This document shows, piece by piece, positions 3,331 to 27,910 of a DNA stretch of 47,963 bases; position 1 is the stretch's first letter, and each line of letters begins with the position of its first letter. Made by a program: the position numbers and the translations under genes. The stretch spans positions 1 to 47,963 of the forward strand of contig LJHR01000031.1 in NCBI GenBank assembly GCA_001296005.1, in the 5' to 3' direction. Origin of the DNA: an alpha proteobacterium AAP38. GTDB taxonomy: Bacteria > Pseudomonadota > Alphaproteobacteria > Azospirillales > Azospirillaceae. Under the pieces are notes generated by a model. That model did not search any database and had not been told where the DNA came from. It saw nothing but the letters and a program-made list of their open reading frames with translations.

Positions 3331-3378
3331 GTTCAAGGGCAGGGGCGGACCCACGCCGCCCGCTGTTTCCATCTTTCA

Positions 3379-3409
3379 GGCCGCGACCTTCCGGGTCGCG
3401 GCCTTTTTT
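3379..3409 (+). terminator. Terminator of the TonB-dependent receptor gene
   Basis: GGCCGCGACC (3379-3388) and GGTCGCGGCC (3394-3403) form a perfect 10-bp stem with a five-base loop, followed by TTTTTT. The T run overlaps the stop codon of the convergent TetR gene. Confidence 0.9.
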
Positions 3410-15007: not shown

Positions 15008-17173
15008 TCAGTAGCGGTATTTCAGGCCCAGCGACCAGGTACGCGGCGCGCCGTAATAGGCGAGCTGGTACCCCAGGCTGTCCGACAGGTCGAAACCGTG
15101 GCTGACATAGCGCTTGTCGGTGATATTGCGGACGCCGAAGGTGGCGGTCCACTGCTCGTCCATGGTCTGGAACGCCACCTGGGCATTCAGCAGGGCGTGG
15201 CCGGACTGGGCCAGGACCTCGCTGCTGCTGACCGTGGGATAGGTCTTGGAGCGGTAGGAGAGATCGCCATCAACGATCACCCGGCCGGCATCGCCCACTT
15301 CCCGCTGCCAGTTGGCGCCGAAGCGGAAGCTCCATTCCGGGGAATTGACGGGCGTGCGCAGGTGGGAAATATCGGTGCCGCCCGACCCCTTATATTCATC
15401 ATATTGCGCGTCCAGCCAGGCGGCGGTGGCCGACAGGGTCAGGTCCGCCGTCACCCGCGCATTCATTTCCAGCTCCAGCCCCTTGGTCGTGGCGGCACCA
15501 GCATTGGTGAACAGGGCGGCAAAGCCGCCCGTGCTGTCGGCCACGAAGGAGGAGAGCTGCAAATCCTTATAGTCATTATAGAAGCCGGCCAGATTAAGCG
15601 TCATGCGGCGGTCCAGCAGGCTGGATTTCAGGCCAACCTCATAAGACCACATGGTCTCTGGATCGTATGCCACGGCCTGGGCCGGGTTGTTGGACCGGCC
15701 ATCGAAGCCGCCGCTTTTGAATCCGCGCGCGGCACTGGCATAGGCCATGATATCGTCGCTGACCTTGTAATCCAGGCCCAGCTTGGGCGACAGCGAGGAC
15801 CAGTTATCGCCCGTCTTCACATCCGTGATCCGCAGGCCGGTGCCCAGCGGGGGCGGCACGGGAGAAGTCGCCGCAAAGAATTCCTGGATACGGTCGAAGG
15901 ACTTCTTCTCATAGGTGTAGCGAAGGCCGGCGGTCAGGGACAGGGCGTCGGAGACGTGATAGCTGCCCTGACCATAGGCGGCATAGGAGCGGTTGGTCTG
16001 ATCATTCAGGGAGTTGGTGACCAGGCTGATGACGGGGCCGGCAAGCCCGCTTTCCGTCTCGTCATGTTCGCGGAAATAATAGAGGCCGAAGACGCCGTCG
16101 AACCGGTCACTCTTCACATTGGCCTGGAATTCCTGGCTGAACTGCTTCTGCGCCTCATCCACGAAGACGCCGAAAATGGCGGCAGCCGTGGCGTCCAGGT
16201 CCAGATGCGTCTCGTAATCCATGGTCCGGTAGGCGGTGATGGATTTCAAGGTGACGGCATCGCTGGCGTCCCAGCCGATATGGGCGGCGACGCCGCGCAC
16301 CGACAGCTTGTTCAACCCGTTGAAATCGGCATCGACCTTGAACGGGTCGGCATTGGGCGGGGTGCCGAAGACGGCGGTGGCGCGGGCCGGGGTCCGCGAC
16401 GTGTCGGGCCGGTCATCGGAACCATCGGCGGACAGGCTGATGGTCAGCCGGTCATTGGGCGTGGCCTTCAGGCCCAGACGCCAGGCGAAGGTCTCCTGAT
16501 CGCCATCATCCTTGCCGCCCACCGAGTTCTTCGCGTAGCCATCGCGCGACAGGTAGGCCACGGCGGCACTGCCGGCCAGTTTTTCAGGGATCAAGGGACC
16601 CCGGACGGAGGCCTTCACGTCGCGGCGGTCATAGTCGCCGATCGTGGCCTCGACACTGGCGGCGGTGCGGTCGTCGGGCTGTTTGGAGACGAATTTGACA
16701 GCGCCGCCAATGGTATTGCGGCCATAGAGCGTGCCCTGCGGACCGCGCAGCACCTCCACCCGTTCCGTGTCGAACACATCCAGGAAGGCGCCTTGGGCGC
16801 GGCCCAGATAGACATCGTCCAGATAGATGCCGACACCGGGGTCGGCAAAGGCCAAGCTGTCGATCTGCCCCACGCCGCGGATATAGACGACGGCGTTGGA
16901 GGCATCGCCCTCATGCAGGGTCAGGTTGGGCACGGCGGCCTGCAGGTCGCCCAGATCAGACGCGCCCAGTCGATCCAGCGCATCCGCCGACAGGGCGGTG
17001 ACGGCGACGGGCGCATCCTGCAGCCGTTCCGCCGACCGCCGGGCCGTCACCACAATTTCTTCCAGGGCCAACGTATCGCCCTGGCCCGTCTCCTGCGCCC
17101 AAACGGGCAGCACCGTGATGCCGGTCAGAAGACCCGCCATATAGGCGGCATTCCACGCGCTTGTCTTGGCCAT
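15008..17173 (-). CDS. TonB-dependent outer membrane receptor paired with an esterase
   Basis: A 721-residue receptor: signal peptide ending near residue 27 (LPVWA-QET), TonB-box-like LEEIVVTARR at about 37-46, plug domain with VVYIRGVG, GIYLDDVYLGR and the VEVLRGPQGTLYGRNTIGGAV block at about 126-146, then a barrel ending LGLKYRY. The sequence style (RSAERLQDAPVAVTAL) matches the large clade of receptors in sphingomonads and related alphaproteobacteria that often sit beside catabolic enzymes. The start at 17173 is chosen for AGGAAA four bases upstream; a start five codons earlier is possible. The downstream esterase suggests an ester-bearing substrate. Confidence 0.93.
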   Translation of the reverse strand: MAKTSAWNAAYMAGLLTGITVLPVWAQETGQGDTLALEEIVVTARRSAERLQDAPVAVTALSADALDRLGASDLGDLQAAVPNLTLHEGDASNAVVYIRGVGQIDSLAFADPGVGIYLDDVYLGRAQGAFLDVFDTERVEVLRGPQGTLYGRNTIGGAVKFVSKQPDDRTAASVEATIGDYDRRDVKASVRGPLIPEKLAGSAAVAYLSRDGYAKNSVGGKDDGDQETFAWRLGLKATPNDRLTISLSADGSDDRPDTSRTPARATAVFGTPPNADPFKVDADFNGLNKLSVRGVAAHIGWDASDAVTLKSITAYRTMDYETHLDLDATAAAIFGVFVDEAQKQFSQEFQANVKSDRFDGVFGLYYFREHDETESGLAGPVISLVTNSLNDQTNRSYAAYGQGSYHVSDALSLTAGLRYTYEKKSFDRIQEFFAATSPVPPPLGTGLRITDVKTGDNWSSLSPKLGLDYKVSDDIMAYASAARGFKSGGFDGRSNNPAQAVAYDPETMWSYEVGLKSSLLDRRMTLNLAGFYNDYKDLQLSSFVADSTGGFAALFTNAGAATTKGLELEMNARVTADLTLSATAAWLDAQYDEYKGSGGTDISHLRTPVNSPEWSFRFGANWQREVGDAGRVIVDGDLSYRSKTYPTVSSSEVLAQSGHALLNAQVAFQTMDEQWTATFGVRNITDKRYVSHGFDLSDSLGYQLAYYGAPRTWSLGLKYRY

Positions 17174-17303
17174 GTTTCCTGTCCCCATTCACGCGGCGGT
17201 CAGATGCCGCCGTTGAGGCCAGCATGGCCCGTGCCGGGGACAGGATATAGCGAAGAGACAGCGGACAAGATTGCCGCAGATTTTGCGGGTATCTGGCGGC
17301 GAC

Positions 17304-19058
17304 CTATCCCAGGCTGGCGCGATAGGCCCGCCAGCCCCCGAATTCGGTGATGTCGGTGGCACCGGCCAGGGCGTGGCTTTCGCACAGGAAACAGGTGACC
17401 TGACGGCCATCATCCAGCGTCACCTTGCCCACGCCCAGCGGGGCGGGGATGCGGGCGACGAATTGGCCGAAGGCGGCGGGCGGCAGGGCCCATTCCTCTG
17501 CCACGATGCCCGGCCCTGCAAAGCCCGGCTCGCGAACCAGACCGGGCTTCGGCGGGACCGTCCCGGCCAGGGCATAGAAGCGGTAATCCGGCGCGGTGCG
17601 GACATCGCCCAGCTTGATCCCGCCGACGCTGGTCAGCTCCTGGTTCAGCGGCATGCCTGACAGATGGGCACCGACCACCACGATAGGCAGCCAGTCGGCG
17701 GGTGCGGTCGGCATGATCTCTCCCTTGCCATGCAGGCGGCTGGCCAACACGGCCAAGCCGTGATCGGTGAAGGCAGGCCCGATCAGCGTGACGCCAAAGG
17801 GCAGGCCATTGGGGCGGAACCCGGCGGGCACGGCCACGGCGGCACAGTCCAGCAGGTTCACGAAGTTGGTGTAGAGGCCCAGATTGCTGTTCAGACGCAC
17901 GGGATCGGCCAGCATGTCTGCCACCGAATAGATTGTCGGCGTGGTGGGCAGCAGCAGCAGGTCCAGATCGGACCAGATACGGGCGATTTCCTGGGTATAG
18001 AAGGCCAGTGAATATTGGCCGACAAAGGCCTCTACCGCTGTCTTGCCCTCCGCCCCGGCGATGATGGCGCGCACGGTGGGGTCCATGGCATCGGCCTGAC
18101 CCTCAAAAAACTCCTCAATCGCGGCCAGCCGCTCGGCCACCCAGGGGCCGCCATAAAGCAGATGAGCGCATTCGCGCAGCGGCTTGTAATCAAACGGCAC
18201 CGCCGTGCCGCCCAGGGACATCAGCCGTTCCACCGAGGCGTCATACAGCGCCTCTGCCGCATCATCCCCCAAAAACGCCTTCTCTGTCCCCGTCAGCACC
18301 CCAAAGCGGAAGCCGGACAGGCGCAGGGGCCGGGTCTGGGGTGGCCGTGAGAAGGGGTCGGACGCATCAAACCCTTCCGCGACCCGGCGGACCAGATCAC
18401 CATCGGCAACATCATGGCTCAGCACCGTGATACAATCCTGCGAGCGGCAGGCGGGCACCAGGCCAGAGGTGGAGAGCAGGCCCTTGCTGGGCTTGATCCC
18501 CACCAGATCATTGAAGGCGGCAGGCACCCGGCCCGATCCCGCCGTGTCGGTGCCCAGCGCGAAGGCCACCTGCCCGTGCGCCACCACTACCGCCGACCCG
18601 GAACTGGACCCGCCAGAGATATAGTCGCTGTTGAACACACAGCGCGGGGCCCCATAGGGGCTGCGCGTGCCGTTCAGCCCTGTGGCGAACTGGTCCAGGT
18701 TGGTCTTGCCCACCAGAATGGCCCCGGCGGCGCGCAGCCTGGCCACCACCGTACTGTCGGATGCGGGCGTGAAGGCAAAGACAGGGCAGGCGGCGGTGGT
18801 GAGCAGGCCGACGGCGTCGATGTTATCTTTCGCGGCGAAGGGGATACCCCAGAGCGGCTTTGACGGATCGTATCCACCCGCCGTCAGCGCCGCTGCCTCG
18901 GCGCGCAACTGATCGGCGGGCACCGTGTTGATCCAGGCGGCGGGGTCGGGGTTGGCGGCCAGACGTGCCAGCACCGCCTCTATCACCGCCACCGGGTTGC
19001 TGGCCCCGCTGCGATAAAGCTCGGTCAGGGCCTGGATGGTCAGTTTTTCGGGTAGCAT
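17304..19058 (-). CDS. atzF: Allophanate hydrolase, last enzyme of the guanidine operon
   Basis: Hydrolyses allophanate to two ammonia and two CO2. The N-terminal amidase-signature domain carries the Ser-cisSer-Lys triad: Lys77 in PFAAKDNID, the serine cluster GGSSSGSA (149-156) and the nucleophile Ser175 in GTDTAGSGRVPA. A smaller C-terminal domain (from about residue 470) is the allophanate hydrolase C-domain. The 584-residue length is normal for AtzF. Its start overlaps the carboxylase stop (TGATG), so it is translationally coupled as the last gene of the operon. In the guanidine pathway the allophanate comes from carboxyguanidine deimination rather than from urea carboxylation. Confidence 0.95.
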   Translation of the reverse strand: MLPEKLTIQALTELYRSGASNPVAVIEAVLARLAANPDPAAWINTVPADQLRAEAAALTAGGYDPSKPLWGIPFAAKDNIDAVGLLTTAACPVFAFTPASDSTVVARLRAAGAILVGKTNLDQFATGLNGTRSPYGAPRCVFNSDYISGGSSSGSAVVVAHGQVAFALGTDTAGSGRVPAAFNDLVGIKPSKGLLSTSGLVPACRSQDCITVLSHDVADGDLVRRVAEGFDASDPFSRPPQTRPLRLSGFRFGVLTGTEKAFLGDDAAEALYDASVERLMSLGGTAVPFDYKPLRECAHLLYGGPWVAERLAAIEEFFEGQADAMDPTVRAIIAGAEGKTAVEAFVGQYSLAFYTQEIARIWSDLDLLLLPTTPTIYSVADMLADPVRLNSNLGLYTNFVNLLDCAAVAVPAGFRPNGLPFGVTLIGPAFTDHGLAVLASRLHGKGEIMPTAPADWLPIVVVGAHLSGMPLNQELTSVGGIKLGDVRTAPDYRFYALAGTVPPKPGLVREPGFAGPGIVAEEWALPPAAFGQFVARIPAPLGVGKVTLDDGRQVTCFLCESHALAGATDITEFGGWRAYRASLG

Positions 19059-22000
19059 CAGACAATATCCTCCAGGATGGCGACGGTCTGTCCGGCATTG
19101 ACGGTACGGCCCGGCTTCACGGTGATTTCCCGCACCCGGCCCGCACTGGCGGCCTTGACCTCCATCTCCATCTTCATGCTTTCCAGGATCAGGATGGTGT
19201 CACCGGCGGCCACCACCTGGCCCGGCTCCACCATCACCTTCCACACATTGCCCGTTACACCCGTTTCGACACCGGAACAACCATCGGGCATGCTGGTATT
19301 GTCGGCCACCGGGCCGCCATCGTCGCTGACGAAACTGTCCAGGCCACGAGCCTTCCAATCTTCCCGCTCGGCCTCGAACGCCGCCTGCTGGCGGGTTTTG
19401 AAGGCGTCGATGCTGGCGGCATTCTCAGCCTGAAAGCCCAGGTGCGCGGCATAATCCAGGGTGGTTTCCTCGATCCGCACCGGATATCGGCCATGGGGGA
19501 AGGCCTCGCGCGCTTCCGCCAATTCCTGTTCCGTTACGGGGAAGAAACGAATTTGGTCAAAGAAGCGCAGCAGCCAGGGGCTACCCTGCTGGAAAGGCGG
19601 AGTGTTGCGCCAGGAATTCCACACTTGAATGGTGCGGCCAAACAATTGGTATCCGCCCGGCCCCTCCATACCATAGATGCACATATAGGCTCCGCCGATG
19701 CCCACGGCATTTTCCGGGGTCCAGGTGCGGGCGGGATTATATTTGGTGGTCACCAGCCGGTGGCGCGGGTCCAGCGGCGTGGCTACCGGCGCGCCCAGAT
19801 AGACGTCACCCAATCCATAGACAAGGTAGGAGGCGTCGAAGACAATGCGCTTCACATCCTCCTGGTTGTCCAACCCATTGATACGGCGGATAAACTCGAT
19901 ATTGTCCGGGCACCAGGGGGCGTCGGCCCGCACCAGTTCCTGATACTTGGTCATGGCCAGCCGGACCTGGGGATCGTTCCAGGATAGGGGCAGATGCACG
20001 ATGCGGCTGGGCACCTTGGCCTGTTCGATGCTGCCCAGGCCCGCCTCGATCTCCGCCAGCACACCCAACAGCTTGGATAGCTTTAACGTTCCGCTATCGT
20101 AATGAACCTGGAGAGAGCGGATGCCCGGTGTCAGGTCGATGATGCCGGGTAGGGCGCGGGCGCGGAGCGCCGTGACCAGCAGATGCACGCGCAGCCGCAG
20201 GCCCAGATCCAGCGCCATCGGCCCGTATTCGACCAACAGATAATCATCCCCCGCCCGGCGATAGACGACGGGCACCGGCCCGTCGATCCGCGACAGGATG
20301 GGGGAGGGGAGGGTGGCGTGGGTGATGATGGCGGGGGCGCTGGGCGTCACGGATACCGGCACAAACCGAACCTTATCGCCGGGCCGCAACTGCCCGACCT
20401 TCCACAGATCATCCTTGGTGACGACCACGGGGCAGACGAACCCGCCCAGACTGGGGCCATCGGGGCCAAGAATGATGGGCATGTCACCGGTAAAGTCCAC
20501 GGCCCCGATGGCATAGGCATTGTCATGGATGTTGGAAGGGTGCAGCCCCGCCTCCCCCCCATCCGCCCGCGCCCATTTCGGGCGGGGGCCGATCAGGCGC
20601 ACGCCGGTGCGGGCGGAATTGAAATGCACCTCATAGGTCGCGGCAAACAGGTCGGCGATGTCGTCTTCCTGAAAAAAGTCAGGCGCGCCGTGCGGTCCAT
20701 AATGGACGGACAATTGCCAATCGTTGGACAGAACGGGCAGAGCAGGCACTTCCGCCGGACCCACCGGCAGCCCCGCCAGCGTCAGCGTGTCACCCGCCTT
20801 CAGGCAACCGGTGGCGTGACCGCCAAAGCGGCCGAGCGCGAAGGTGGCCTTGGAGCCCAGATATGTCGGCGCATCAAAGCCACCGGCCACGGCCAGATAG
20901 GTACGCTGTCCCGCCCCCTGGATGCGGCCCAGCGCCAGGGTCTGCCCGGCCTTGACGGTGACCGGCGTGCCGTGGGCTACGGGCGCACCGTCCAGGGTGG
21001 TCGCCATCACCGCACCCGTCAGAGCGATGGTGGCATCGGTATTGAAGCGCATGGTGGGCCCGGTCAGGGTGCATTCCAGTGCTGCCGTGCCGTCTGCATT
21101 GCCCAGCAGCCGGTTGGCCAGACGGAAGGATTTATCATCCATCGGCCCCGACGGCGGCACCCCCACATCCCAATAGCCCAGCCGCCCCGGCCAATCCTGG
21201 ATGGAGGTCTGGGCACCGGGGGCCAGCACCTCAATCGTGGCCGGGGTGAAGGCGAAATCCTTCAGCACCGATGTGGCGACCTTCCCCTGGCGGAACACAT
21301 CCGACCCGATGATGGCGGCCAGATAGGACAGGTTGGTTTCAATCCCCGCCACGCGGCTGGCGGCCAGGGCGGCTGACAGCTTGTCAATCGCCGCATCACG
21401 CGTATCCGCATGCACGATCAGCTTGGCCAGCATCGGGTCGTAATTGGCCGTCACCTCCGTGCCGGTCGCCATCCAGCCATCGACACGGATGTCGGTGGGG
21501 AAGGTCACCTCTGTCAACAGACCGGTGGACGGGCGGAAATCGGCGGCGGCATTTTCGGCATAAAGCCGGACCTCAATCGCGGCCCCATGCGGGATCAGGC
21601 TTTCCTGGGAGGGCAGGGTGAAATCACCGGCGGCCTGCCGCACCATCCATTCCACCAGATCGACGCCGAACACGGCCTCTGTCACCGGATGTTCGACCTG
21701 CAGCCGGGTATTCACCTCCAGGAAATAGACCCGGGCGCGGGCCACGTCATAGATGAACTCAACCGTGCCAGCGGATGCGTACTTGACTGACTGGCCCAGG
21801 GCGATGGCGGCATCGCGCAGGTGCAGGCGCACCGGATCAGGCAGGCCGGGGGCGGGCGTTTCTTCCACCACCTTCTGGTTACGGCGTTGCAGGGAGCAGT
21901 CGCGCTCTCCCAGCGCCACGACACCGCCCTTTCCATCGCCGAAAATCTGCACCTCGACATGCCGCGCCTCGGCCACGAACCGTTCAAGATAGACGCGCGC

Positions 22001-22579
22001 ATCGCCAAAGCTGCTGGTGGCCATGCGCTGTACGGCGGCGAATTTGGCGGCCAGCTCCTCGGCGGAATGGCAAAGCTGCATGCCGATGCCACCGCCGCCT
22101 GCGGTACTTTTCAGCATGACGGGGAAGCCGATTTCGGCGGCCGCCACCTGCGCCTGTTCCACGCTGTCCAGAATGTCGGTGCCGGGCAGCAGCGGTACGC
22201 CCGCCGCCTTGGCCAGGGCGCGGGCCGTGTGCTTCAGGCCGAAACCTTGCAGATGTTCCACACGCGGGCCGATGAAGGTGATGCCCGCTTCATTCAGCCG
22301 TTCCACGAACCGGGCATTTTCCGACAGGAAGCCATAGCCGGGGTGGACGGCCTGCGCCCCCGTCGCCTTGCAGGCGGCGATGACGGCATCAATATCCAGA
22401 TAGGATTGTTTGGCAGGCGAGGGACCGATATGTACGGCCTCGTCCGCCGACAGGACCGGCAGGATGAAACGGTCGGCGTCGGAATAGACGGCGACAGAGG
22501 CAATACCCATGCGCCGCAGGGTTTTGACCACCCGTGCGCAGATCTCGCCACGATTGGCGATCAGGACCTTGGTGAACAT
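19058..22579 (-). CDS. Guanidine carboxylase (urea carboxylase family)
   Basis: A 1173-residue single-chain biotin enzyme. An N-terminal biotin carboxylase (about 1-450; KVLIANRGEICARV, STAGGGGIGMQ glycine loop, EVNTRLQVEHPVTE) is followed by the KipI/KipA-like carboxyltransferase region (about 480-1050) and a C-terminal biotinyl domain with ESMKMEME, biotinylated lysine Lys1136. Generic annotation would be urea carboxylase. The guanidine-I riboswitch and the two DUF1989 partners make guanidine the likely substrate, giving carboxyguanidine; this follows published reassignment of riboswitch-linked members. The discriminating active-site residue was not assigned here. ATG 22579 has AGGGG six bases upstream; an in-frame GTG at 22582 is less likely. 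Confidence 0.93.
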   Translation of the reverse strand: MFTKVLIANRGEICARVVKTLRRMGIASVAVYSDADRFILPVLSADEAVHIGPSPAKQSYLDIDAVIAACKATGAQAVHPGYGFLSENARFVERLNEAGITFIGPRVEHLQGFGLKHTARALAKAAGVPLLPGTDILDSVEQAQVAAAEIGFPVMLKSTAGGGGIGMQLCHSAEELAAKFAAVQRMATSSFGDARVYLERFVAEARHVEVQIFGDGKGGVVALGERDCSLQRRNQKVVEETPAPGLPDPVRLHLRDAAIALGQSVKYASAGTVEFIYDVARARVYFLEVNTRLQVEHPVTEAVFGVDLVEWMVRQAAGDFTLPSQESLIPHGAAIEVRLYAENAAADFRPSTGLLTEVTFPTDIRVDGWMATGTEVTANYDPMLAKLIVHADTRDAAIDKLSAALAASRVAGIETNLSYLAAIIGSDVFRQGKVATSVLKDFAFTPATIEVLAPGAQTSIQDWPGRLGYWDVGVPPSGPMDDKSFRLANRLLGNADGTAALECTLTGPTMRFNTDATIALTGAVMATTLDGAPVAHGTPVTVKAGQTLALGRIQGAGQRTYLAVAGGFDAPTYLGSKATFALGRFGGHATGCLKAGDTLTLAGLPVGPAEVPALPVLSNDWQLSVHYGPHGAPDFFQEDDIADLFAATYEVHFNSARTGVRLIGPRPKWARADGGEAGLHPSNIHDNAYAIGAVDFTGDMPIILGPDGPSLGGFVCPVVVTKDDLWKVGQLRPGDKVRFVPVSVTPSAPAIITHATLPSPILSRIDGPVPVVYRRAGDDYLLVEYGPMALDLGLRLRVHLLVTALRARALPGIIDLTPGIRSLQVHYDSGTLKLSKLLGVLAEIEAGLGSIEQAKVPSRIVHLPLSWNDPQVRLAMTKYQELVRADAPWCPDNIEFIRRINGLDNQEDVKRIVFDASYLVYGLGDVYLGAPVATPLDPRHRLVTTKYNPARTWTPENAVGIGGAYMCIYGMEGPGGYQLFGRTIQVWNSWRNTPPFQQGSPWLLRFFDQIRFFPVTEQELAEAREAFPHGRYPVRIEETTLDYAAHLGFQAENAASIDAFKTRQQAAFEAEREDWKARGLDSFVSDDGGPVADNTSMPDGCSGVETGVTGNVWKVMVEPGQVVAAGDTILILESMKMEMEVKAASAGRVREITVKPGRTVNAGQTVAILEDIV

Positions 22580-22597
22580 CACATATCCCCTTTGGCG

Positions 22598-23248
22598 TCA
22601 GGCAGCCCAGACCAGCACCCGGATGGGCGTGGGGTCGAAACCGTTGCAGGGATTGTTCACCTGGGGACAGTTGGAGATGACGCAGAGCAAATCCTGATGC
22701 GCCACCATTTCCACATAATCCCCGCCCGATGACACGCCATCGGCAATGGCCAGCGTGCCGTCGGCGTCTATGGGCACATTCATGAAGAAATTGATGTTGG
22801 GCACGATATCGCGCTTGCCCATGCCATGGCGCGACACGGCAATCAGGAAGTTTTCCCGACAGGCATGCATGTATTTGGTCTGATGACCAAAGCGCACAGT
22901 GTTGCTTTCGCAACTACACGCCCCGGCGGATGTATCATGGCTGCCGCTGGTATCGGCTATGACGGTGGCCAACGGGTTGCCCCGGTTGGAATAAAGCACC
23001 GAGCCCGGCCCGATATAGGGCGTGCCCTGGGCCAGCACCGTATCCTGGGCGCTATAACGCTCTGTATGGTCGGACAAGCTATAGAACAGGGTGTCGACCG
23101 CCTGACAGCCTTCGCTGTCGATGATGCGGAAGACCTGGCCCTTGCGCACGATGCCGGACCAGGGATGTTCCGCCGGGATCACCTCGTCATGGATGGCGGT
23201 GGCCATGTCGCGGTTGGACAGGACGGGGGTGAATGTGCTGTTGCTCAT
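22598..23248 (-). CDS. DUF1989 protein, carboxyguanidine deiminase subunit (urea carboxylase-associated protein 2 type)
   Basis: A 216-residue member of the DUF1989 family, historically named urea carboxylase-associated protein. Established work assigns the paired DUF1989 proteins of guanidine operons to a heteromeric carboxyguanidine deiminase that converts carboxyguanidine to allophanate and ammonia. The likely metal/active-site region is intact: His104-Asp105 in SGSHDT followed by GACSCESN with Cys111 and Cys113, then KYMHACRENF. These cysteines are missing from the other DUF1989 copy, suggesting that this is the catalytic subunit. GAGGGAAAT precedes the start. Eighteen bases separate its stop from the carboxylase start. 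Confidence 0.9.
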   Translation of the reverse strand: MSNSTFTPVLSNRDMATAIHDEVIPAEHPWSGIVRKGQVFRIIDSEGCQAVDTLFYSLSDHTERYSAQDTVLAQGTPYIGPGSVLYSNRGNPLATVIADTSGSHDTSAGACSCESNTVRFGHQTKYMHACRENFLIAVSRHGMGKRDIVPNINFFMNVPIDADGTLAIADGVSSGGDYVEMVAHQDLLCVISNCPQVNNPCNGFDPTPIRVLVWAA

Positions 23249-23266
23249 GATATTTCCCTCCCCTGT

Positions 23267-24082
23267 TCAGGCGGACAGATAGGCATCAGTATTGACGAAA
23301 CCGCGCACAGCCTCTGCCGTGGCGGTGCGGCACAGATCATCCGTGGCGGGTGCGGGGGCCGTGTGGATGGTCAACGCTACTGGCGCCGGCTCAACCTTGG
23401 GGGCCAGCGGGTGGGGGGTATTGGAGATGGCCAGGATCAGATCCATTTCGGCGCGCAGCGACACGAAATCACCGGGCGTGACGGCGCTGGCATCAAAGGC
23501 GAAGGTGCCGTCCGCCGTGACGCTGGCGGGGGCGAAAAAGCTGATGCAGGGCGGGGTATCCCGCTGCGTCAGCCCATGTTTGCCAGCGGCCAGGATGAAA
23601 TTGTCCCGCGCGTTGCGGATACCGCTGTCGGGGCCATAGGTGCGGGTGACTGATGCCGGGGTGGACCCGCCGACCACCGTGTCATGCCGCCCGCAACTAT
23701 CCTCCACAATGGACAGCAGCACCCGGCCCATGTCGGAGAACAGGACCCGGCCTTTCCGCAGGTCCGTCGTCCACTGAATCTTAATCGTGTCGGCGTGGTT
23801 GTACCGTTCCGACGGGTCGGCCAGATTCCAGGCCAGCAGCGACACACCCGGTGTCGCGCCCGGATTGCTGATGCGCAGCACCTGCCCGCGCCGGATCACC
23901 CCGGTCCAGTACCAGCCACCGGGTAGGCTTTCGGACAGGATGATGCTGTCGGCGCTGGGTGGGGCCATGTCGCGCGGACTGGGCGGTGGCAGGACCAGCG
24001 GCGCATGGCCGGCACCGGCGGATTTCAGTTCCAGGTAACGGGCGCGGTTGGCGGCGATCTGTTCTGGGGTCTGGCGGGGCAT
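23267..24082 (-). CDS. DUF1989 protein, carboxyguanidine deiminase subunit (urea carboxylase-associated protein 1 type)
   Basis: A 271-residue DUF1989 protein, the longer partner. It begins with MPRQTPEQIAANRARYLELK, typical of the type 1 proteins, and has a proline-rich linker (about 28-42) before the DUF1989 core. The counterpart of the metal/active-site region reads GRHDTVVGGSTPAS (His133-Asp134): the His-Asp pair remains but the two cysteines of the partner are replaced by Gly/Ser/Thr. This is consistent with a non-catalytic or structural subunit of a heteromeric deiminase. GGAGGGAG precedes the start. It lies between the transporter genes and the second deiminase subunit. Confidence 0.9.
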   Translation of the reverse strand: MPRQTPEQIAANRARYLELKSAGAGHAPLVLPPPSPRDMAPPSADSIILSESLPGGWYWTGVIRRGQVLRISNPGATPGVSLLAWNLADPSERYNHADTIKIQWTTDLRKGRVLFSDMGRVLLSIVEDSCGRHDTVVGGSTPASVTRTYGPDSGIRNARDNFILAAGKHGLTQRDTPPCISFFAPASVTADGTFAFDASAVTPGDFVSLRAEMDLILAISNTPHPLAPKVEPAPVALTIHTAPAPATDDLCRTATAEAVRGFVNTDAYLSA

Positions 24083-24094
24083 GATGCTCCCTCC

Positions 24095-24925
24095 TCACGC
24101 GGCGTCGGTCGGGTCGTCCCGGTCCGGTTGCCCGTCGACAGTGGCCGGGTCGTCCCGGCGGGGCGGATTGGGGTCTGTGCCGGAGCCTGGATTGCCCGCC
24201 ACGCGGCGGGGCCAGACCTCGATATCGTTGGTGATGCTGGCGCCGTAACGCAACCGTTCTTCCGGCAGGTTACGGCGGCGGTCAAAGGCTATGACGCGGG
24301 TGCCCAGGTGGAAGGCTTCCGACAGGTCATGGGTGACCATGACGACGCTCATCGGATGTTCGTGCCACAGTTTGCGCATCAGCTTATGCACATCGCCCCG
24401 GATACCGGGGTCCAGCGCGCCGAACGGTTCATCGAGCAGCAGCACCTTGGGCTTGGCAATCAAGGCTTGGGCCAGGGCCAGCCGCTGCTGCATGCCGCCG
24501 GAGAGTTGGGCTGGGTACTTATCCAGCGCGTGGCTCAGGCCGACCGCATCCAGCAGCCGGGCCGCCTCATCCCTGGCCTGACGCCGGGCGGCACCGAACA
24601 GGCGACCCAGTACCCCGCCGCCCTTCAGCTCCGCCCCCAGCAGCACATTGCCCAGCACCGTCAGGTGCGGGAAAACGGAATAACGTTGGAACACCACGCC
24701 CCGGTCAGGGCCGGGTTCGGGCGAGATGGGTAAGCCGTCAATCAGGATTTCGCCCTTGGTCGGCGTTTCCTGTGACAGCAGCATGCGCAGAAAGGTGGTT
24801 TTGCCACAGCCGGACGGGCCGACCAGGGCCACGAAGGAACGCGGGGCGATTTCCAGATTGATCTGTTCCAGAACCACCTGCTCGCCATATTCCTTCCAGA
24901 CATTGCGAACGGAAATCTGTGTCAT
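24095..24925 (-). CDS. ABC transporter ATP-binding protein, guanidine importer (NitT/TauT type)
   Basis: A 276-residue ATPase that energises import through the permease at 24922. Walker A is GPSGCGKT (36-43), the Q-loop Gln is near 80, the signature is LSGGMQQR (141-148) and Walker B is VLLLDEP (161-167). It carries an extra C-terminal tail of about 40 residues, rich in Pro, Asp and Arg (after about 235), beyond the usual domain. ATG 24925 overlaps the permease stop in ATGA; a longer in-frame extension to 25003 is rejected because it reads back into the permease. Nitrate/taurine-type transporters of this kind recur in guanidine-riboswitch operons, so guanidine is the likely cargo. Confidence 0.92.
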   Translation of the reverse strand: MTQISVRNVWKEYGEQVVLEQINLEIAPRSFVALVGPSGCGKTTFLRMLLSQETPTKGEILIDGLPISPEPGPDRGVVFQRYSVFPHLTVLGNVLLGAELKGGGVLGRLFGAARRQARDEAARLLDAVGLSHALDKYPAQLSGGMQQRLALAQALIAKPKVLLLDEPFGALDPGIRGDVHKLMRKLWHEHPMSVVMVTHDLSEAFHLGTRVIAFDRRRNLPEERLRYGASITNDIEVWPRRVAGNPGSGTDPNPPRRDDPATVDGQPDRDDPTDAA

Positions 24926-25743
24926 GCCCCGGCCCTCGCTTCCTCGAACCACGGGAAGGCGCGGCGTTGCAGCACCCGCAAGCCCAGATCCATCAGGAAG
25001 CACAGCAGGGTGATCCAGGCGACATAGGGCAGGATCACATCCATGGCCAGATAGCGGCGCACCAGGAAGATGCGGTAACCAAGGCCGCTTTCACTGGCAA
25101 TCGCCTCTGCCGAGATCAGGAACAGCCAGGCGGGCCCAAGGTTCAGGCGGATGCTGTCGATCAGGCGCGGCAATATCTGTGGCAGCACCACGCGGATGGC
25201 GATGGTCCAGCTATTGGCCCCCAGCGTCTGCGCCTTGATCAATTGCTGTCGTGGCAGATCGTCGATCTTCAGCATCAGGTCGCGGATCAGGCAGGGCAGG
25301 ACCCCGACCACGATCAGGGTGATCTTGGATGCCTCTCCCAGCCCCACCATGATGAACAGGATAGGCAGCACGGCCAGCGGCGGCACCATCGACACCACCG
25401 TAACAAACGGGGACAGGGTGGCGCGGACATAGGGCAGCAGACCGGCGGACAACCCAACCAGCAATCCACCCGCCGCCGCGATGGCGATGCCCACCGCCAG
25501 CCGGGCCAGCGAGGCGCCGGTATCCAGCCACAGCAGGACATCGCCCGTGCGCTTGTCGGCGGTAAACGCCATGCGGTCGATGGCATCGGCAAAGGCGGTC
25601 AAACCCGGCAGCAACTTGTCCGCCGGGTTTTCGGCCAGCCGCACCGCCGACCCCAACGCATAGGCAATCAGAACCGCCAGAAAGGGCAGGGCTGCCAGAA
25701 GCATCCAGCTTGTTCGATCGGGTCGCTTGTTGATCAGACGCAT
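24922..25743 (-). CDS. ABC transporter permease, guanidine importer (NitT/TauT type)
   Basis: A 273-residue membrane protein of the SsuC/TauC/NrtB permease class with about six hydrophobic segments (first at about 14-32) and a cytoplasmic coupling region with the EAA-type loop around EAQTLGANSWTIAIRVVLPQILP-like residues (here KAQTLGANSWTIAIRVVLP). It pairs with the ATPase (ATGA overlap) and the periplasmic protein at 25895. The gap before it from the binding-protein gene holds a palindromic repeat, so the operon is probably continuous but with an RNA structure that may adjust the relative amounts of binding protein and membrane components. Confidence 0.92.
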   Translation of the reverse strand: MRLINKRPDRTSWMLLAALPFLAVLIAYALGSAVRLAENPADKLLPGLTAFADAIDRMAFTADKRTGDVLLWLDTGASLARLAVGIAIAAAGGLLVGLSAGLLPYVRATLSPFVTVVSMVPPLAVLPILFIMVGLGEASKITLIVVGVLPCLIRDLMLKIDDLPRQQLIKAQTLGANSWTIAIRVVLPQILPRLIDSIRLNLGPAWLFLISAEAIASESGLGYRIFLVRRYLAMDVILPYVAWITLLCFLMDLGLRVLQRRAFPWFEEARAGA

Positions 25744-25788
25744 GGGCGGGGTCCCGTGGTTGGGCGTTTGTCACGCTGTCTCTCGCTG

Positions 25789-25860
25789 CCTTCCCCGCGA
25801 AAGCGGGGATACAGGGGCCGTCGTGCCTGTGACCCTGGACCCCCGCTTTCGCGGGGGAAG
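25789..25860. repeat. Palindromic intergenic repeat with two GAAA/TTTC hairpins, copy 2
   Basis: Two arms, each a hairpin: CCCCGC-GAAA-GCGGGG (25793-25808) and CCCCGC-TTTC-GCGGGG (25841-25856), lie in inverted orientation around a short centre, with flanking CTTCC/GGAAG and CAGGG/CCCTG matches. The design equals copy 1 at 5403-5524, but two stem base pairs are changed on both sides, preserving the fold. It sits between the binding-protein gene and the permease gene of the guanidine operon. Confidence 0.8.
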
Positions 25861-25894
25861 CAAATGAAAGGTGAGAGATTGCTGCCGCCGCCGC

Positions 25895-26971
25895 TTACAG
25901 CTTCCCGTCTGCTGCCGCCGCCATGTACGTGTCGGTGAAGCGGAGCTTCACGAACTTGGCATTGCCGTAGGTGACACCGCCCGGGAACTCGATCCCCACG
26001 GCTTCTGCCGACGGTGCACCGTTGCCCAGCAGGCCGTGGTCGAACAGGAAGCCCGCCACCTTCTGCATGGTGGCCTTCGGTTCGGCCCCGCGCACAAAGC
26101 CCAGCGCGTCGGCAGGCTTGTAGAACATGCGGGTGGCCTTCAACTGCGCCTCAAAGCCTGCCAGATCGGTGCCTGACGCCTTGCCCATGGCGGTGCGGGC
26201 GGCTACACCCGCGGGGGTGTCGGCGGACATCAGGGCCATGGTCTCATACCAGATGCCGGCCAGCGCCTTGCCGAAGGCCGGATTGTCCTTCAGCACATCA
26301 GTGTTCGCGACGGTCAGGTCGATGATTTCGCCAGGGATCTGGCTGCTGTCGAACACCTTCTTCGCACCCGGCGTGGCCAGGATCTCGGCGACCAGAGGGT
26401 TCCAGGTGACCACTGCCGTGACATCCGCGGTGGACCATGCAGCGACCATGTCGGCGTCGGAGGTGGAAACGACGCTGACATCCTTCTTTTCCGTCAGCTT
26501 CACGCTTTCCAGCGCGCGGGTCAGCAGATAATGGCTGACCGAATATTCCACCAGATTGACCTTCTGGCCCTTGATGTCGGCCAGCTTATCCTTGCCCTTC
26601 AGGATGACGGCGTCATTGCCGTTGGAGAAATCGCCCACGATGACGGCGGTGGTGTCGACGCCACCGGCGGCGGGGATGGACAGGGCGTCCATGTTGGTGA
26701 CAGTGACGGCGTCGAAGGCGCCGGCGGTGTATTGGTTGATGCTTTCAACATAATCGTTGAACTGCACCACCTCGATCTTGATGCCGTACTTGTCGGCCCA
26801 TTTCTTCACGATGCCTTGGTCGGCGGCATACTGCCACGGCATCCAGCCGACATAGATGGACCAGGCCAGCTTGAAGTCCTTCTTCGGCGCCGCATAGGCG
26901 GGAAGGGAGAGCAGCGAGGCGGCAACCAGGCCGGCGGTCAATTTTCCAAGGAAGCGGCGCGTCTTCATCAT
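25895..26971 (-). CDS. Periplasmic guanidine-binding protein of a NitT/TauT-type ABC transporter
   Basis: A 358-residue exported binding protein, first gene of the guanidine operon. The signal peptide is MMKTRRFLGKLTAGLVAASL... with cleavage near AYA-APK (residue 26). The mature part matches the NMT1/OmpA-like family: LAWSIYVGWMPWQYAADQG, QYTAGAFDAVTVTNMDAL, VNLVEYSVSHYLLTRALE. It should capture the nitrogen source and deliver it to the permease and ATPase encoded downstream. The start at 26971 follows AGGGG by four bases; ATG 26968 is an alternative with seven-base spacing. This ribosome binding site is the predicted target of the riboswitch. A very long upstream in-frame extension runs through the riboswitch and is rejected. 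Confidence 0.92.
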   Translation of the reverse strand: MMKTRRFLGKLTAGLVAASLLSLPAYAAPKKDFKLAWSIYVGWMPWQYAADQGIVKKWADKYGIKIEVVQFNDYVESINQYTAGAFDAVTVTNMDALSIPAAGGVDTTAVIVGDFSNGNDAVILKGKDKLADIKGQKVNLVEYSVSHYLLTRALESVKLTEKKDVSVVSTSDADMVAAWSTADVTAVVTWNPLVAEILATPGAKKVFDSSQIPGEIIDLTVANTDVLKDNPAFGKALAGIWYETMALMSADTPAGVAARTAMGKASGTDLAGFEAQLKATRMFYKPADALGFVRGAEPKATMQKVAGFLFDHGLLGNGAPSAEAVGIEFPGGVTYGNAKFVKLRFTDTYMAAAADGKL

Positions 26972-27033
26972 CCAACCCCTATCGTTCCAAACCGGTTTGG
27001 GGGTTGGCGGAGACCGTAAGGGGGCGCCAACCC
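26972..27033 (-). promoter_or_regulatory. Riboswitch expression platform with mutually exclusive ribosome-site pairing
   Basis: On the minus strand GGGTTGGCG (27033-27025) pairs perfectly with CGCCAACCC (27009-27001). The same CCAACCCC segment (27007-27000) can instead pair with GGGGTTGG (26979-26972), which contains most of the Shine-Dalgarno AGGGG. A perfect 14-base palindrome CCAAACCGGTTTGG (27000-26987) lies between. There is no T run, so control of translation rather than termination is predicted. Which fold goes with bound guanidine cannot be decided by eye. Confidence 0.65.
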
Positions 27034-27040
27034 ACCTCGA

Positions 27041-27157
27041 TCTCCCGGGCTTTTGTCCCGCCGTGTACCAGACGGGGCCGATAGGCCGTGTCTGGCGGCA
27101 GCTCTCGGACCAGACACCCGTGTCATCCACGGCCGGAACCCTAGCCACCTTTAATAC
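27041..27157 (-). promoter_or_regulatory. Guanidine-I riboswitch (ykkC class) aptamer
   Basis: Read on the minus strand, the leader of the binding-protein gene contains the conserved guanidine-I blocks in order: CTAGGGTTCCG (27144-27134), TCTGGTCCGAGAG, then ACACGGCGGGACAAAAGCCC followed by CGGGAGA ending near 27041. Supporting helices are CCGTG/CACGG just after the first block, GTGTCTGG/CCAGACAC around the second, and a GGCC-TATC-GGCC hairpin in the variable region. This aptamer class senses free guanidine. I could not assign the closing P1 helix with confidence. Its presence is the main evidence that the downstream genes handle guanidine, not urea. Confidence 0.93.
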
Positions 27158-27167
27158 GCTGCATAGC

Positions 27168-27184
27168 AGCAAGGTTCGTGCCAG
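27168..27184 (-). promoter_or_regulatory. Sigma-54 (RpoN) promoter of the guanidine operon
   Basis: CTGGCACG-AACC-TTGCT on the minus strand matches the -24/-12 consensus (YTGGCACG-N4-TTGCW) at every conserved position with correct spacing. Counting from the GC at -12 puts the start near a G at 27157, about 13 bases before the first conserved aptamer block. Sigma-54 with NtrC is the usual nitrogen-limitation system, which suits a guanidine nitrogen-scavenging operon. Confidence 0.85.
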
Positions 27185-27190
27185 CCATAA

Positions 27191-27242
27191 ATCGCCAGAA
27201 TCGCTGGATGGATCGCCAGCATATGGCGCAGTTGCGGGCAAC
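27191..27242. promoter_or_regulatory. Possible activator region upstream of the sigma-54 promoter
   Basis: Three near-identical octamers ATCGCCAG, ATCGCTGG and ATCGCCAG start at 27191, 27200 and 27212 (plus strand), and a palindrome GTTGC-GG-GCAAC lies at 27231-27242. Sigma-54 promoters need an upstream-bound activator. Neither motif matches the usual NtrC box, so the link is inference. Confidence 0.3.
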
Positions 27243-27285
27243 CTGCCTGATTGGAGCGCGTAAAAATTAGGCAATGCCGATGCGG

Positions 27286-27314
27286 TTGACAGAGGCCCTG
27301 CGCTCGGGCATCTG
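27286..27314 (+). promoter_or_regulatory. Possible sigma-70-type promoter of the UPF0114 gene
   Basis: A consensus -35 TTGACA (27286-27291) is followed after 17 bases by a weak -10, CATCTG. It lies in the 375-base divergent gap shared with the guanidine operon and would drive the gene at 27347. Confidence 0.3.
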
Positions 27315-27346
27315 CTGGCCACGCCCGACCCGATGGAGAAAGCCCC

Positions 27347-27856
27347 GTGATCGAACGCTATATTGAGCGCACTCTCTACGCATGCCGCTGGCTGCTGGTG
27401 CCGATGTATCTGTGTCTCGCCCTTGTCTTGATCGCGTTCACGGTCCGGTTCGGCGTGGAACTGGTAGACCTGTTTGGTTACGCCCTTTATGGGGAAAGCG
27501 AGGCTGATCTGATCCTGGCGGCCCTGACGCTGGTTGATCTGGTCCTTGTGGGCAGTCTTGTGATCATGGTGATGATCAGTGGGTATGAAAATTTCGTCTC
27601 CCGGATTGAGTTGGATGAGAATGATGAGAAGCTGTCTTGGCTGGGCAAGCTGGATAGCGGCACGCTGAAAGTTAAGGTCGCCGCCTCCATCGTGGCCATT
27701 TCGTCCATCCATCTGCTGAAAAGCTTCATGGATGCCGACAAGGTAACGAATGACAAGCTGATGTGGCTGGTCATCATCCACCTGACCTTTGTGGTTTCGG
27801 CGGTGCTCATGGGCTGGCTTGACAAGCTGTCTTCCTCGAATAAGTCGAGGCTTTAA
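27347..27856 (+). CDS. UPF0114 (YqhA) family membrane protein
   Basis: A 169-residue inner membrane protein of the UPF0114/TIGR00645 family with about four hydrophobic segments (near 13-35, 55-78, 105-125 and 138-158). Characteristic blocks are [21 protein letters not shown] at the start, [12 protein letters not shown] at about 75-86 and the [21 protein letters not shown] stretch. The start is GTG with GGAGAAAG upstream (27335-27342). It is a single gene with its own promoter candidate and a strong terminator. The function of the family is unknown; there is no evidence that it belongs to the divergent guanidine system. Confidence 0.9.
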
Positions 27857-27873
27857 CCAGATTCCAAGCCTTC

Positions 27874-27910
27874 AGGTCACATGCCCAGCCCGGCATGTGA
27901 CCTTTTGTTT
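27874..27910 (+). terminator. Terminator of the UPF0114 gene
   Basis: AGGTCACATGCC (27874-27885) and GGCATGTGACCT (27892-27903) form a perfect 12-bp stem with a CAGCCC loop, followed by TTTGTTT. Confidence 0.92.

Follow-up and report, generated by a model that had tools for sequence, protein, structure and literature searches.

Guanidine-I and guanidine-II riboswitches in a probable guanidine-assimilation operon of alphaproteobacterium AAP38, the second lying within the ATPase gene

Introduction

Guanidine operons with two riboswitches have already been published, some of them with an importer and a guanidine-II riboswitch before the carboxylase gene, and guanidine has been described as an external nitrogen source for comparable operons of other bacteria (PMC12508155, PMC12186494; all papers given by PMC number are cited for those sections that were available). 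Here, we describe an operon of this kind on a stretch of 47,963 nucleotides (the window; contig LJHR01000031.1 of assembly GCA_001296005.1) from alphaproteobacterium AAP38 (Azospirillaceae), in which a guanidine-I riboswitch stands at the head and a guanidine-II riboswitch lies inside the coding sequence of the importer ATPase.

The operon of Vreelandella boliviensis (Sinn et al., 2025; PMC12508155) resembles that of the window, having guanidine-I at the head, an internal guanidine-II, importer genes, the carboxyguanidine deiminase genes cgdAB, the guanidine carboxylase gene gca and an allophanate hydrolase gene. Growth on guanidine has been reported for this organism; guanidine is bound by its guanidine-I riboswitch at 44 µM and by its guanidine-II riboswitch at 93 µM, and the latter also binds methylguanidine (PMC12508155). 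In the window, unlike in V. boliviensis, guanidine-II precedes cgdA and sits inside the ATPase gene. Enterobacterial loci (Raoultella, Erwinia, Klebsiella; PMC12186494) are similar in part, with guanidine-I for the importer and deiminase genes and guanidine-II for later genes; there guanidine-II serves the carboxylase and hydrolase genes, whereas in the window the deiminase genes are also behind it. The usual mode of guanidine-I is transcriptional control via a terminator, and the precedent for the guanidine-II class is that translation is switched on (PMC12186494). Tandem riboswitches likewise place two elements on one mRNA, and according to the sections available of a 2022 review no guanidine class was found in any tandem (PMC9481103).

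Materials and methods

The whole window was scanned with Rfam. Loci for comparison were taken from guanidine-I matches in samples of 385 Alphaproteobacteria and 398 Pseudomonadota, from cgdA homology in named genomes and from the genus of the host. All genomes with guanidine-I over the cut-off were taken from the Pseudomonadota sample, and all but one (G228) from the Alphaproteobacteria sample. Duplicate contigs were dropped (L100, equal to L064; L101-L104, equal to L058, L061, L060 and L062; L106, equal to L063; L235, equal to L107). Also dropped were L112, L113, L115 and L117, which have a cgdA homologue and no gca and in which no guanidine-II was found with model R1; L114, which has cgdA, cgdB and gca with neither riboswitch at threshold and no importer adjoining cgdA; and L184, L186 and L196, which end at contig edges. 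L064 was counted although its contig stops short of guanidine-I, and L200 was counted from its Rfam match (34.0 bits), having been missed by the hairpin rule. L118 was counted among the Alphaproteobacteria despite its Firmicute record name, as by identity its proteins fall among those of Alphaproteobacteria; the record title (Exiguobacterium profundum isolate SSD5) looks mislabelled, the operon matching Alphaproteobacteria.

Model R1 was built without the eight tandem sequences of group g3 and was run against 52 loci (400 kb) for the tandem sites. The carboxylase was aligned to the K. lactis enzyme (3va7), residues 737 and 991 being taken as K. lactis 1330 and 1584, with the offset of 593 obtained from two urea amidolyase chains.

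Results and discussion

The second presumed guanidine sensor, overlooked in the original prediction, is a guanidine-II riboswitch that exceeds the RF01068 gathering score of 32 (Table 1). It lies wholly within the ATPase frame, in about its last 22 codons and just 5' of cgdA, and the ATPase stop codon overlaps the cgdA ribosome-binding site. Like other members of RF01068 (mini-ykkC), it consists of two short ACGR-loop hairpins just before a start codon; unlike the usual sites, it is embedded in the upstream coding sequence. A model made from 21 elements, with the window site in its training set, gave this site 54.2 bits and the next site in the genome 27.5. The distance to guanidine-I is about 2.9 kb, with three genes between, so that the pair in the window is not a one-leader tandem. 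A second genomic guanidine-II (G000:C7:174898-174947; L003 1501-1550), at 31.8 bits just below the cut-off, precedes a SugE-type small multidrug resistance (SMR) gene (101.4 bits, below the NCBIfam cut-off of 126).

Named cgdA relatives, among them a Niveispirillum MAG with 98% protein identity, assign the host to Niveispirillum, and the arrangement is shared within this genus. Seven of its 11 genomes carry guanidine-I, and all seven carry guanidine-II 2.8-3.0 kb downstream on the same strand; an eighth (G072) has guanidine-II, its contig being too short for guanidine-I to be seen. The hairpins lie within the ATPase gene in all eight operons. Neither riboswitch was found in G066 and G074, the latter being left out of the counts as its sole match, at the start of a contig, is cgdB-like. 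A weak guanidine-II was seen by eye in G069 before an SMR-like gene.

In the eight genus operons the hairpins are in frame and the repeated GGGACGACCC encodes RDDP twice, as it would if the repeat were a protein motif of the ATPase tail (RDDP...RDDP) and the match to the RNA family a by-product. This is very improbable. The synonymous difference rate, taken over same-residue codon pairs of the eight ATPase genes, is 0.068 in the 12 hairpin codons; it is 0.272 for the remainder of the tail and, at 0.342, about five-fold higher for the core. A rate as low as that of the hairpins was reached by two of 5000 random sets of core codons and by none of 4906 pairs of contiguous core windows. Relatives read the hairpins in other frames, P1 in two and P2 in all three (frames 2 and 0 in L108, L182 and L183; frames 1 and 2 in L118, L119 and L231). 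In L111 the ATPase stop codon falls between the two hairpins, and in five operons (L185, L190, L193, L197, L227) both lie beyond it, between genes. A protein motif as the sole cause of the repeat is ruled out by the differences of frame, and the synonymous suppression also speaks against it. Among 21 sequences the two ACGR-loop hairpins covary, with 94.8% of cells paired and a stem covariation score of 0.190 (0.112 when shuffled) that none of 500 shuffles reached; the count of four double-change pairs, reached by 32 of 500 shuffles, is weaker. From the synonymous suppression, the frame differences, the stop-crossing and intergenic cases and the stem covariation taken together, RNA and not protein is judged to be under selection at the hairpins.

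Guanidine-II precedes cgdA in all 29 distinct alphaproteobacterial operons examined in which the ATPase adjoins cgdA. The element is inside the ATPase gene in 23, across its stop in one and between genes in five. In the other classes of Pseudomonadota sampled, 22 of 23 importer-first operons have guanidine-II between cgdB and gca, always behind the cgdB stop and never in a gene (23/29 versus 0/22; Fisher p 2.5e-9, uncorrected for shared ancestry). Many of the loci, from the genus and from the Pseudomonadota sample, had been picked with guanidine-II matches already known. By the loci compared, the guanidine-II pattern is one that belongs to Pseudomonadota. The proposal that it is general to importer-first operons was ruled out by loci of Campylobacterota and cyanobacteria that lack it (see below).

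The two riboswitches also occur singly. In L109, L110 and L157 (Methylobacterium/Beijerinckia group) guanidine-II stands before cgdA with no guanidine-I in the stretch taken; the L157 element scored 31.0 bits with R1, and guanidine-I was sought there by core motif only. Guanidine-I directly before cgdA with no guanidine-II was found in L107, L116, L187, L191, L205 (just below the cut-off), L240 and all five leaders of group g13. Apart from these, in 11 of 12 guanidine-I importer operons tested the gene next after the ATPase belongs to the arginase family and carries an N-terminal extension, possibly a guanidinase route (L066, L067, L188, L194, L198, L199, L202, L203, L232, L237, L242); in the twelfth, L236, the open reading frame (ORF) tried behind the ATPase had no Pfam match. 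In L242 (G609) a sub-threshold guanidine-II (3334-3380, 29.7 bits) precedes the arginase-family gene (PF00491), perhaps a guanidinase gene, instead of cgdA.

The original prediction placed a guanidine-I aptamer in the leader, the importer at the head of the unit and the carboxylation pathway behind it, and all of this holds. The leader passes RF00442 (gathering score 63), and its site is the single guanidine-I match in the 5.78 Mb genome at E up to 0.001. All seven genes were identified by profile matches in the order claimed, on the minus strand: periplasmic substrate-binding protein (SBP), permease, ATPase, cgdA, cgdB, gca and allophanate hydrolase. The two DUF1989 subunits adjoin the carboxylase gene, and both exceed their cut-offs. 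Operons of this kind have been published, in some cases with importer genes and an internal guanidine-II riboswitch, and the operon as originally predicted is therefore known biology.

Table 1
Features of the guanidine operon in the window, in window coordinates
Feature	Position	Strand	Match or remark
Guanidine-I riboswitch aptamer	27155-27040	-	RF00442, 87.9 bits, E 1.6e-14
Element A of the guanidine-I expression platform, GGGTTGGC	27026-27033	-	complementary to B in 7/7 genus leaders
Element B, GCCAACCCCC	26999-27008	-	pairs with A or C; A:B -15.2, B:C -15.3 kcal/mol in the window
Element C, GGGGTTGG	26972-26979	-	directly 5' of the SBP start codon; in 7/7 genus leaders
SBP	26971-25895	-	TIGR03427, 547.8 bits (cut-off 333.9)
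ATP-binding cassette (ABC) permease	25743-24922	-	BPD_transp_1, PF00528
ABC ATPase	24925-24095	-	ABC_tran, PF00005
Guanidine-II riboswitch, in ATPase coding sequence	24161-24109	-	RF01068, 37.0 bits, E 6.5e-4
Guanidine-II hairpin P1	24144-24159	-	6 bp, loop ACGA
Guanidine-II hairpin P2	24110-24121	-	4 bp in this species, loop ACGA
cgdA, carboxyguanidine deiminase subunit (DUF1989 A)	24082-23267	-	UAAP1, TIGR03425, 263.3 bits, over cut-off
cgdB, carboxyguanidine deiminase subunit (DUF1989 B)	23248-22598	-	UAAP2, TIGR03424, 322.3 bits, over cut-off
gca, guanidine carboxylase (family model: urea carboxylase)	22582-19058	-	TIGR02712, 1844.6 bits
Allophanate hydrolase	19058-17304	-	TIGR02713 and AH_C

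A palindromic GC-rich repeat (CCCCGCGAAAGCGGGG and its complement), resembling the repetitive extragenic palindromic (REP) type by eye, lies at 25800-25880 between the SBP and permease genes. On the same strand, 115 bases 3' of the allophanate hydrolase gene, is a TonB-dependent receptor gene (15008-17188); it was excluded from the operon because it is present downstream in only one of six genus relatives.

The guanidine assignment of the carboxylase, also part of the original prediction, stands, since both signature residues are present: Asp696 and Asp926 (ORF numbering) are the equivalents of K. lactis 1330 and 1584, at which Asp is required of guanidine carboxylases (2024; PMC11410670), and the K. 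lactis enzyme has Asn in place of Asp696. The first position is Asp in 65 of 65 loci and the second in 63 of 63 readable loci, counts that include the window and a few duplicate contigs.

In the guanidine-I leader, element A lies just 3' of the aptamer and element C at the expected position of the SBP ribosome-binding site. In six of the seven genus leaders the A:B and B:C pairings are nearly equal (-15.2 versus -14.5 to -15.3 kcal/mol); in the L063 leader B:C is the weaker (A:B -14.4, B:C -11.2 kcal/mol). No terminator-like site was found in the leader, and the three within 22500-27900 are all in genes and at chance level (3.4 in shuffles). Control by a terminator is not required by the RF00442 family model. 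The arrangement suggests that guanidine-I may here control translation, by an A:B versus B:C switch at the start codon and not by an intrinsic terminator, whereas a terminator has been proposed for guanidine-I of V. boliviensis (PMC12508155).

We estimate the probability that this is a guanidine-assimilation operon with two guanidine sensors in one transcription unit at about 80%. Both riboswitches presumably lie on a single transcript, and the importer-first layout points to the use of external guanidine as a nitrogen source. Several points weigh against this reading. One importer-first operon of the other Pseudomonadota classes (L239, among 23) has no guanidine-II. Among the remaining 60 loci taken by cgdA homology, none was found in six loci of Campylobacterota (Sulfuricurvum/Campylobacterales; L140-L143, L147, L149), which have the guanidine-I core motif and the order SBP, permease, ATPase, cgdA, cgdB, gca, nor in seven cyanobacterial loci (L126-L129, L131, L133, L135) with the guanidine-I core motif and weaker importer matches. 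Since importer-first operons without guanidine-II exist, such operons can in general do without a second sensor. No operon promoter could be assigned from sequence. On folding 22 operons, the cgdA ribosome-binding site was not consistently masked in a way that the guanidine-II hairpins relieve, and the mechanism by which guanidine-II would switch translation on therefore rests on the precedent of its class. Switching could be blunted by translation of the ATPase itself, since ribosomes have to open the aptamer as they pass. Lastly, the genome gave no convincing match for a urease alpha subunit (best 20.5 bits, cut-off 680), so that the carboxylase could also serve urea as a side use.

The lack of a convincing urease would also fit an operon that is mainly for urea, with urea carboxylase and allophanate hydrolase as its pathway, and the family models name the genes for urea. 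Set against this are the Asp residues at both guanidine-carboxylase positions, the two guanidine riboswitches and the CgdAB genes, which have been assigned to carboxyguanidine (PMC11410670), and we regard a main role in urea use as unlikely in the extreme, if less so than the protein-motif explanation.

In operation, guanidine-I at the operon head would sense guanidine and release the importer genes; guanidine-II in the last ATPase codons would sense it again and open cgdA translation, the downstream catabolic genes being opened by translational coupling to cgdA. Imported guanidine would be carboxylated by Gca and deiminated by CgdAB to allophanate, which would be hydrolysed to ammonia. Most likely, then, the importer is under guanidine-I and the catabolic genes are under guanidine-II, although ligand binding, the direction of switching, an effect on the translation of cgdA and growth on guanidine are all inferred. 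If the affinities resemble those of V. boliviensis, the importer may be switched on first and catabolism later.

Whereas the two aptamers are in separate places in the window, they share one leader in eight members of the family. These belong to a group, g3, which is probably Azospirillum-like (a label inferred from family membership). In 11 of its 12 guanidine-I loci the leader is followed by cgdA, which was recognised by tblastn in ten and, in L050 at the edge of a contig, solely by the start motif common to the cgdA genes. In eight of the 11 (L038, L040-L043, L046, L047 and L050; genomes G036, G042, G021, G032, G031, G022, G014 and G011) guanidine-I is followed about 70 bases on by two guanidine-II-like hairpins, whose long linker forms a stem of its own. 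The rule that guanidine-II is missing wherever guanidine-I directly precedes cgdA is thus wrong for g3. The element is degenerate in L048 (G029; 18.7 bits with R1), and none was found in L054 and L057. Rfam gave overlapping matches below threshold at four of the eight sites (24.4-25.2 bits against 32), and R1 matched all eight at 46.4-53.6 bits (E 5.5e-9 to 1.8e-7; next match 23.7). The eight leaders have a mean column identity of 93% and therefore count as about one lineage. They are a candidate guanidine-I/guanidine-II tandem in one leader. By eye, a CCTCC between the aptamers has two possible pairing partners, the ribosome-binding site of cgdA and a GGAGG that follows guanidine-I.

The tandem leaders bear on whether the embedded guanidine-II is a relic, left when importer genes were inserted between tandem aptamers, its switching lost and the element kept unfolded by ribosomes. 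Both elements do stand in one leader before cgdA in the eight family members, the importer genes are at the operon end in the two that were read further (L068, L069), and folding showed no masking. The hairpins are nevertheless kept while the surrounding ATPase tail drifts, and the element recurs under several family labels and in several frames, which is hardly expected of a relic; we hold this explanation to be unlikely, if less remote than a urea operon.

In the openly accessible literature searched we found no published guanidine-II inside a gene and no guanidine-I/guanidine-II tandem in one leader; a guanidine-II before cgdA within coding sequence, and the candidate single-leader tandem, appear to be new there. 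Riboswitches are mostly sought in untranslated leaders. Here a validated riboswitch class recurs in coding sequence, in different frames, across the Alphaproteobacteria sampled, and searches restricted to intergenic regions would therefore miss it. Together the loci form a natural series, with guanidine-II in one leader with guanidine-I, between genes, across a stop codon or in a gene, and before cgdA or gca, which lets one ask why one ligand is sensed twice per operon and how an aptamer can function while ribosomes pass through it.

Beyond the gating of importer and catabolic genes by two sensors, we put forward tentatively, as a possibility with the odds against it, that the in-gene form is a widespread riboswitch read by two machines: each ribosome translating the ATPase would unfold the coding aptamer, which would refold between ribosomes, and the tandem of guanidine-I and guanidine-II in the Azospirillum-like leaders would be the first of its kind in nature and a possible source of the in-gene form once importer genes lay between the aptamers. 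If so, CgdA output would report the guanidine level and importer translation jointly, matching catabolism to uptake.

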